Below, piece after piece: positions 6,105 through 8,196 of a stretch of 55,371 nt of DNA (position 1 is its first letter; every line of letters begins with the position of its first letter). The position numbers and the translations under genes were made by a program. This DNA comes from Candidatus Halobonum tyrrellensis G22. Lineage in GTDB: Archaea; Halobacteriota; Halobacteria; Halobacteriales; Haloferacaceae. The stretch is taken from NCBI RefSeq assembly GCF_000495475.1, contig NZ_ASGZ01000059.1, positions 1-55,371 on the forward strand, read 5' to 3'. A model generated the notes under the pieces. The model ran no database searches. It was given only the letters and a program-made list of their open reading frames with translations, and was not told where the DNA came from.

Positions 6105-6126
6105 GTTCATGCGGCTTTGTTGAAAT
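6105..6126. repeat. left end of mobile element: 8-bp target duplication plus 14-bp terminal inverted repeat
   Basis: GTTCATGC (6105-6112) is repeated exactly at 8189-8196. It is followed directly by the left terminal inverted repeat GGCTTTGTTGAAAT (6113-6126). The right end, read on the minus strand, is GGCTCTGTTGAAAT, a 13/14 match. An 8-bp target duplication is what I recall for ISH1-type members of the IS5 family. Confidence 0.85.
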
Positions 6127-6164
6127 CCTCAGAGAGTTACATGTTCGTCTTGTAATTCCACGAG

Positions 6165-6984
6165 ATGAAGGCCCTCCCGAAGTCGCAGATTCTCCGGTTT
6201 ACCGAGAAGGCGATCCATCTGGCACGTCGAGCCGTCTCTCGATACCCCTCGAAGTTCTCGAAGCATCGCTATACACTTCCCAGCACGTTGTTTTGATCTG
6301 TCTCAAAGTTCGGAAGAACACGACCTATCGTGGGCTACTTGACGAACTGATCGAAATGTAACGCATCCGCCGTTTTCTTGGACTAACCGAACTTCCTACA
6401 CCATCAACCTCTGTAAGGCGTTCAACCGGCTTGATATGGACGTATGGCGTACTATATTGACTCTCTCAGCAACGCTACTTCCGACGAGCGGCGTTGTTGA
6501 AGTTGATTCGTCAGGATTCGACCGCAGTCACGCCTCGAAACACTACACGAAACGAGCTGAACTCACGATTCAGCAGCTTAAAGTGACGCTACTGGTCGAT
6601 ACGGAGGTGAACGCAATCCTCGATGTCCACGTGACGACGACACGAAAGCACGATAGCCAGATCGCCCCGTCGCTGATCAAGCGCAATCCCGAGAGTATCG
6701 ATACTCTGCTCGGTGACAAGGGGTATGACGACCAGAAGATCAGACGGCTTGCCCGTCAACGTGAGGTTCGCCCAGTGATCAAGCATCGTGAGTTTACATC
6801 ACTTCATGAGGCATGGAACGCACGCTTAGACACTGATCTCTACGGCCAACGGAGTCAATCCGAGACTGTCAACTCAACGCTCAAACGAAAATACGGTGCG
6901 TTCGTCCGCTCACGACAATGGTGGAAACAGTTCCGTGAACTCACCACCGCCTGTCTCAGTCACAACATCGACCGATCACTCTGA
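6165..6984 (+). pseudogene. IS5-family transposase, decayed (two frameshifts and one stop)
   Basis: Pieced together, the protein reads MKALPKSQILRFTEKA at the start. It continues through HVVLICLKVRKNTTYRGLLDEL, LCKAFNRLDM, VDSSGFDRSHASKHYTKR, LGDKGYDDQKIRRLARQ and SQSETVNSTLKRKYGAF (each read as a separate stretch). This order is typical of haloarchaeal IS5-type DDE transposases; the catalytic carboxylates lie around VDSSGFD, GDKGYDD and SQSETVNSTLKRK. Damage: one base lost near 6275 (CCC run, before the QHVV segment), a TAA at 6359-6361 where a sense codon is expected, and one base lost near 6409. The last 182 codons (from 6436) are intact. The protein would be inactive unless recoded. Confidence 0.9.
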
Positions 6985-7005
6985 GCGGTCAATACAGGGC
7001 TTGGG

Positions 7006-7854
7006 TCAGGCGGCCCGTTCGTACAGACGGTATCGCGCCACGCAGTGGACAGCGAAGGTGATCCCGATTAGCAGGACTGGCAGCGCGACAAGGACGACTC
7101 CGACCCCCACCATTACAAGACCCAGCGAAAAGGCGAAAATCAACGAGGGAACGCCAACGAAAATAATCGCGCCGCCGATAAAGGTTGCGAGACCGAGCAC
7201 GACGAGAACTCCGAAACAGAGCGCTTGGAGCGCCAAGACCGCACCCTTCGTGGTGAAGGCCAGTCCGAAGGCGCGCCGGACGCTCGAAACAAACCCCCGG
7301 TTCTCGAAGACGATCACAGGGACGACGTAGAAGGTCACGACGGTCCAGCCGAACGTCGAGCCGACAAGGGCCACGATTCCGGTCGGCTCCTCGTCCAGCG
7401 GACCGCCGTGGAACGCTTCGGCAAGTATGAAGACGACGAGTGTGATAGCCGAAAGTCCGACGACTGCCGTCACCCCCCACAGCACGAGGGGGCGCAACCG
7501 CGAGCCCGTTTGCCGGAGCGCTCCCCGGAACGTTCGGTTCCCTCCCGTACTCTGACGGGCGACCAGTTCGACGCCCGCGGCAACGGCGAGGGTGAACATC
7601 GGCTGCCACAGCACGAGCGCCTCCGGATCGACAGCCTCCCGGAGCAACGGGATCGAGATTTCGGTCCGCGAGAGCCCGACCACGGCTCCCCCCGTCACTG
7701 CCACCGGAACAGTGAAGATCACGAGCAGTTCGATCAGCAGAACGCGGTCCGAGAGTACCTGTTTGACCGCACGATGGGTCTCGACAAGCCCCGCACGAAC
7801 GCCCGGCGGATCGGGATCCGGGGAGCCGTCGGTGGCGTCTGAGTGGGTCGTCAT
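7006..7854 (-). CDS. multi-pass membrane protein carried by the IS element (DUF6159-like)
   Basis: The 282-residue protein has about six membrane segments: LIELLVIFTVPVAVTGGAVV, LWQPMFTLAVAAGVELV, LVLWGVTAVVGLSAITLVVF, STFGWTVVTFYVVPVIVF and two or three more toward the C-terminus. The VVPVIVFENRGFVSSVRRAF stretch resembles membrane proteins of the DUF6159 type; this is a weak recognition. No enzyme motif is seen. I chose the ATG at 7854 because a TATA-like AAGCTTAT lies about 55 bases upstream. An upstream start at 7986 would add 44 poorly folded residues. Codon use is more AT-rich than in neighbouring host genes. It sits between two copies of the same IS 3' end. Confidence 0.75.
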   Translation of the reverse strand: MTTHSDATDGSPDPDPPGVRAGLVETHRAVKQVLSDRVLLIELLVIFTVPVAVTGGAVVGLSRTEISIPLLREAVDPEALVLWQPMFTLAVAAGVELVARQSTGGNRTFRGALRQTGSRLRPLVLWGVTAVVGLSAITLVVFILAEAFHGGPLDEEPTGIVALVGSTFGWTVVTFYVVPVIVFENRGFVSSVRRAFGLAFTTKGAVLALQALCFGVLVVLGLATFIGGAIIFVGVPSLIFAFSLGLVMVGVGVVLVALPVLLIGITFAVHCVARYRLYERAA

Positions 7855-8025
7855 CGCGGCGGCTCTGAATTCGACATACACCCCAGCGTCAGTCTCACCG
7901 AGGAAGATAAGCTTAGCCGGCGAGAGTACCGTCGTGACGACGGCACGTCTACGGCTAGTACGATCCTCGAAAAACTCACACTCCACTTAATAAATAAGAC
8001 AATAATATAACTTGGGGTTGGACGG

Positions 8026-8122
8026 CCAGAGCTCAAGTCACGATATTGGCACAAACAGTTCCGTGAACTCACTATTGTATGTCTCGTTCAAAGTATCGAC
8101 CGATCACTCTGAGCGGTCAATA
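8026..8122 (+). repeat. second, partial copy of the IS transposase 3' end
   Basis: This stretch matches the transposase end at about 6899-6994. A 20-base exact match (8053-8072 with 6925-6944) and a 28-base exact match (8095-8122 with 6967-6994, spanning the TGA stop) sit in the same order and strand. In translation both copies give an RELT...IDRSL ending. After 8122 the sequence runs about 50 bases to the right inverted repeat, so this copy keeps the true right end of the IS. Confidence 0.85.
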
Positions 8123-8174
8123 TACATCTCTCATCGATCGGATGTTTCAGATGAGAATATATCTGAAGAAGATA

Positions 8175-8196
8175 ATTTCAACAGAGCCGTTCATGC
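8175..8196. repeat. right end of mobile element: terminal inverted repeat plus 8-bp target duplication
   Basis: The right inverted repeat is 8175-8188 (GGCTCTGTTGAAAT on the minus strand, one mismatch to the left end). GTTCATGC (8189-8196) repeats the left flank exactly. Host-like GC-rich sequence resumes immediately after. Confidence 0.85.

Follow-up and report, generated by a model that had tools for sequence, protein, structure and literature searches.

The stretch of DNA analysed here (the window; 55,371 nucleotides from Candidatus Halobonum tyrrellensis G22) contains a 2.1-kb segment in which a single pair of insertion sequence (IS) ends encloses a broken transposase gene, an intact gene for a membrane protein with 6-7 hydrophobic segments, and the 3' end of a second transposase gene (Table 1). 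The element proper spans positions 6113-8188 and is single-copy in its own draft genome. Its inverted ends, the right one at 8175-8188, agree at 13 of 14 positions, and the 8-bp target-site duplication (TSD) flanking them is perfect.

Table 1. Features of the IS element and its passenger gene, in window coordinates
Feature	Position	Strand	Remark
Target-site duplication, left copy, GTTCATGC	6105..6112	.	sequence
Left terminal inverted repeat, GGCTTTGTTGAAAT	6113..6126	+	relatives have GGCTCTGTTGAAAT
IS5_2-type transposase gene, broken	6165..6984	+	two frameshifts and one stop
About 14 nt past the transposase stop, GCGGTCAATACAGG	6985..6998	+	in most relatives the last conserved stretch before the cargo slot
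Passenger membrane-protein gene, intact, convergent with the transposase gene	7006..7854	-	~282 aa
3' end of the transposase gene of a second, different IS copy	8038..8122	+	82% identical to the first; abuts the right end
Right-end module with terminal inverted repeat ATTTCAACAGAGCC	8123..8188	+	similarity to the right ends of relatives
Target-site duplication, right copy, GTTCATGC	8189..8196	.	sequence

The transposase scores 164.6 bits against the NCBIfam model NF033579 (transpos_IS5_2), above the curated cutoff of 140, and relative to the group consensus it carries frameshifts at about 6281 and 6409 and an in-frame stop at 6359-6361. As the transposase is broken, the element could now be mobile only with help in trans. 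The preliminary description, made from the sequence alone, had recognized an IS5-type element whose 14-bp ends are inverted and flanked by a perfect 8-bp target duplication, together with a decayed transposase and a minus-strand membrane-protein gene, and on all of these points it is borne out. It had also proposed that a single pair of ends, with a single target duplication, surrounds both the transposase remnant and an unrelated gene. This arrangement holds as well, and 50 or more related elements elsewhere share the layout, which suggests that the gene was carried as part of one unit. Cargo-bearing copies of the group that are identical or nearly so occupy more than one site (L107/L173 and L182/L184), and ISHla2 is present at four; for the window passenger, present as a single copy, movement as one unit would be read only from the ends and the TSD.

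A different picture emerges for the origin of the second transposase 3' end, which had been taken for a duplicate of the first and made the basis of a capture through duplication of the IS 3' end. Such a 3' end is indeed present beside the right end, but it is no duplicate: it is 82% identical to the corresponding stretch of the first gene (6910-6994), and the two have different nearest relatives, the left one being 94% identical to copies such as L012/L131 and the right one lying nearest to L099/L092 (89-90% over ~70 nt). The two 3' ends thus come from different IS copies, and duplication of the element's own 3' end is rejected. The outer right end probably derives from another, diverged member of this IS group. 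That the left and right halves of the element stem from different lineages could be taken to mean that its ends belong to unrelated elements and that the target duplication is a coincidence. This is scarcely conceivable, however, as a TSD lies where expected both in the window, with a perfect 8 bp, and in 52 relatives, with 7-8/8, and the chance of an 8/8 match is about 1 in 65,000.

No copy of the same passenger came to light elsewhere, nor did an empty site of the element, with a single genome covering its genus. Relatives of the passenger gene were absent from the remainder of its own genome, from a pattern scan of genome contigs, and from plasmids, and a comparison with 40 other haloarchaeal genomes returned weak partial matches only, the best with 38% identity over part of the protein.

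An IS group with a variable slot

The parent IS was found at the level of a group, ISHla2/ISHxa2-like by plasmid records: the transposases are haloarchaeal IS5 transposases, and the plasmid records name members ISHla2 and ISHxa2. When 391 haloarchaeal genomes (one per species) were searched at the DNA level, 296 matched, and the transposase matches stop ~14 nt past the stop codon; the right ends of the relatives were located separately, hundreds of bases downstream of the transposase. Genome regions together with 80 named loci yielded 52 distinct elements, each bounded by 14-bp ends and a 7-8/8-bp TSD and 1071-5124 bp long (1193 bp for ISHla2). The group is found across haloarchaeal families. 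Viral contigs contained no close relative of the transposase, and carriage by viruses is therefore not supported.

The window element fits this group well. Over 885 bp its DNA is 89% identical to that of relatives, its right end is ~89% identical across 65 bp to theirs, and it shares the 14-bp ends of the GGCTCTGTTGAAAT type and the 8-bp TSD. Its transposase is broken, whereas that of 44 of the 52 relatives is intact with a median dN/dS of 0.08, which indicates that the cargo-bearing form is the live form. We therefore regard the segment, with a probability of roughly 80%, as a decayed copy of a widespread haloarchaeal ISHla2/ISHxa2-like IS5 group that acts as a carrier of single genes.

The elements are modular. 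In typical order, the transposase gene and ~14 nt are followed by variable DNA and then by a right end of usually ~65 bp, and information content is accordingly close to zero from ~14 nt past the transposase stop and returns in the last ~65 bp. Left junctions of the variable DNA cluster at GGTCAATACAGG or its subgroup equivalents, with L145, L160, L189, and L201 breaking elsewhere. The unrelated copies L121, L144, L178, and L201 have another type of right-end module, which differs from the usual one outside the inverted repeat. The nearest right inverted repeat was found in 96 of 112 copies, 63-4023 bp past the transposase. The 63-bp distance occurs in L121 only, where the TSD marks the outer end instead, so that this inner end is not in use; among the 96 copies with a findable right end, there is consequently no simple IS with its transposase joined directly to a functioning right end. 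No TSD was seen in 62 of the 112 copies, in some cases owing to their position at a contig end. As a control, a different haloarchaeal IS5 gave full-length matches in dozens of places, with a constant length of ~940 bp.

The content of the slot changes from copy to copy. Cargo is unrelated in nearly all pairs, even where the transposases are 94-98% identical, and transposase pairs at dS 0.04-0.2 hold unrelated cargo. Carriage is near universal in the group and the passenger almost always a different one, so that the group resembles a general-purpose carrier by which single genes are picked up and moved. The remark in the preliminary description that passenger-bearing IS are a little-described rarity in haloarchaea thus understates the case, as members of this IS group normally carry a passenger.

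The window element could also be viewed as a collapsed composite, in which two related IS once flanked the gene and lost their inner parts, with the IS group itself being ordinary. Its gene does lie between two diverged transposase 3' ends in direct orientation, and we consider a history of this kind conceivable but less likely than not. It fits the geometry of the window copy alone, where it would amount to a special case of capture, and it leaves the same slot in 50 other elements, mostly without a second transposase fragment, unaccounted for.

Several smaller or nested forms accompany the group. A 666-bp transposase-less cassette (L252:2888-3553) has the group's ends, a 7/8 TSD, and an RDD-family gene only, and is classified as a mobile insertion cassette (MIC). 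In L065, L074, and L110, full elements lie inside a ~180-bp MITE built from the group's own left and right ends; the flanking duplication around this MITE contains an N. In L182, the second haloarchaeal IS5 (~940 bp; 7247-8190) that served as the control has inserted into the right inverted repeat of an element with cargo. We had considered L182 as a snapshot of readthrough past a right end and rejected this, as the nested IS5 has its own TSD, GTTTCAAC.

Cargo genes

The variable DNA is rich in complete genes. The best complete ORF fills 60% or more of its segment in 49% of cargos, compared with 9% of size-matched flanks (P 5e-12), and it has two or more hydrophobic transmembrane segments in 44% versus 4% (P 6e-14); the choice of ORF and the hydropathy count are heuristic, with the identical procedure applied to cargo and flanks. 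All comparable pairs but one give a cargo dN/dS of 0.10-0.44, and the cargo genes are under purifying selection. These observations bear on the idea that the variable DNA is junk accumulating in a neutral spacer through nested insertions and random indels, with any genes being incidental. Nested IS do make up or sit in 3 of the 52 spacers (an IS66 in L103, an IS6-like element in L160, and the IS5 in L182), and the smallest spacers (L185, L086) hold no clear gene. Complete ORFs and membrane proteins are, however, far more frequent than in size-matched flanks, and given this excess and the dN/dS values of the cargo, we judge a neutral spacer to be very unlikely.

Pfam matches among the cargo are diverse and comprise thioredoxin, low-molecular-weight (LMW) phosphatase, maltose acetyltransferase, IlvD, FMN-dependent dehydrogenase (Fni-like), MATE, CNNM/CorC, RDD, DUF6498-like, HTH_10 regulators, SnoaL, O-methyltransferase, and alpha/beta hydrolase. 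For the majority of the scanned cargos, Pfam gives no informative match; these encode mostly small membrane or lipoprotein-like proteins. The main cargo gene is convergent with the transposase gene in 35 of 45 elements (P 2.5e-4), a count in which the choice of main gene favors transmembrane proteins. Even slots of the smallest size, ~230-320 bp, often encode a protein of 55-71 aa with two hydrophobic segments (L080, L112, L196, L009, and likewise the small slots of L114, L195, L186, and L142). The possibility that the cargo forms a defence arsenal was discarded, with only 2 of 52 cargo proteins matching PADLOC models.

Some cargo genes have identifiable kin. The gene ilvD is carried in two transposase subgroups, and relatives of ilvD, fni, and RDD/DUF6498 genes were located, several of them already linked to IS fragments or ends; none of these relatives represents a native source locus with borders matching the cargo.

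How genes may enter the slot

Each element consists of three modules, namely, the left end with the transposase up to ~14 nt past its stop, a free slot with one or sometimes two ordinary genes, and the right-end module of usually ~65 bp. Since the transposase would recognize the two ends, anything between them would move along and insert with an 8-bp duplication. Entry of a gene could begin with the weakening or loss of the proximal right end, upon which the transposase would pair the left end with a compatible right end downstream, belonging to another copy or to the other end type, and so enclose the intervening DNA. The inner right end, by then useless, would be deleted later. In the window copy, the gene would accordingly lie between the first copy and the right end of the second, the first copy's own right end being gone.

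Apparent intermediates give some insight into these steps. L121 contains an entire IS of 951 bp, including a right end next to the transposase, followed by 0.7 kb holding a membrane-protein gene and by an outer terminus that is of the different right-end type and carries the TSD. L117 (the ISHxa2 copy) and L146 keep inner right ends whose final bases are GCT instead of GCC. In L146 (5949-11072), a MATE gene and then a CNNM/CorC gene were captured in series, and the inner right end between them is mutated at its last base. Weaker relics of inner right ends are present in L068, L075, and L188, and a recognizable inner right end is kept by only about 6 of the 52 elements. These cases suggest bypass of the proximal right end as the best mechanism; they support the capture step that we infer and stop short of proof. 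Cargo and right end may also be exchangeable between transposase lineages by recombination. In the pair L066/L156, the cargo has a dS of 0.08 and the transposase one of 0.50, with the change in identity near the slot, as would result if lineages had exchanged cargo and right end together.

Random loss of the inner end does not fully account for the sharp left junction. An alternative is that genes are inserted in a cassette-like, site-specific manner just past the transposase stop. The clustering of left junctions at GGTCAATACAGG or its equivalents would agree with this, as would the occurrence of common cargo and right end with different transposase lineages and the position of the identity change. 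Yet the junctions are variable as well as clustered, as the four elements that break elsewhere demonstrate, and some elements retain an inner right end. The elements encode no recombinase such as an integron-like cassette system would have, and conservation on either side of the slot may simply reflect functional modules. We find site-specific insertion improbable on this evidence. Similarly, it could be speculated that these IS form an archaeal system dedicated to gene capture, in which the slot past the transposase stop is actively targeted and single genes are continually swapped in and out. We think this unlikely; if true, it would describe an archaeal counterpart of gene-cassette capture by which genes for small membrane and exported proteins spread between haloarchaeal genera.

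With the intermediates L121, L117, and L146, the acquisition of genes by an IS becomes directly testable. Haloarchaea exchange genes widely, and a different, selected passenger in almost every copy would make the ISHla2/ISHxa2-like group a simple vehicle for single-gene transfer among them. There is also a practical consequence for annotation, as genes adjoining transposases of this kind are routinely entered as belonging to the host although they are transposon cargo; the DUF6498-like and RDD genes carried by L117, annotated as ordinary genes, are an example.

Comparison with known systems

IS are normally regarded as carrying their own transposase alone, and passenger-bearing IS are exceptional. 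MICs are transposase-less relatives of passenger-carrying IS, and transporter IS (tIS) have been described in the IS1595 family, with reports from several IS families. The term tIS denotes an IS that carries passenger genes (PMC3129680, PMC7986276), and the IS6 family has one such member, ISDsp3 (PMC7986276).

ISHla2 and ISHxa2 have the same transposase group, ends, and 8-bp TSD as the window element. Their records differ in that they name the transposase only and list the passengers as separate host genes, and neither the records nor the papers we found describe a slot. Among open-licence PMC papers, none was found that names ISHla2 or ISHxa2 or reports near-universal, ever-different cargo in an IS group; one refers to a transposon passenger gene in Hrr. 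lacusprofundi and draws no link to this group.

With a composite transposon, the window element shares a gene placed between two related IS sequences. It differs in having one terminal inverted repeat pair, one TSD, and no complete flanking IS, as the left copy lacks its right end and the right copy is reduced to its last ~150 bp. With MICs, the group shares a passenger gene between IS ends, and the RDD cassette of L252 is a version without a transposase. The main form of the group differs from a MIC by its intact transposase and the window copy by a broken one, so that the window copy is no MIC, even if it would functionally depend on help in trans.

The group falls under the definition of tIS. 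An ordinary IS transposase and a gene unrelated to transposition lie inside one pair of inverted repeats in the window copy, as they do in most of the 52 elements. The difference is that the reported tIS are single exceptional members, whereas here carriage is the rule, the cargo varies, and the slot is fixed. Members thus normally carry a passenger that differs in almost every copy and is subject to selection, and the ISHla2/ISHxa2-like group is a type of tIS with an unusually promiscuous cargo slot.
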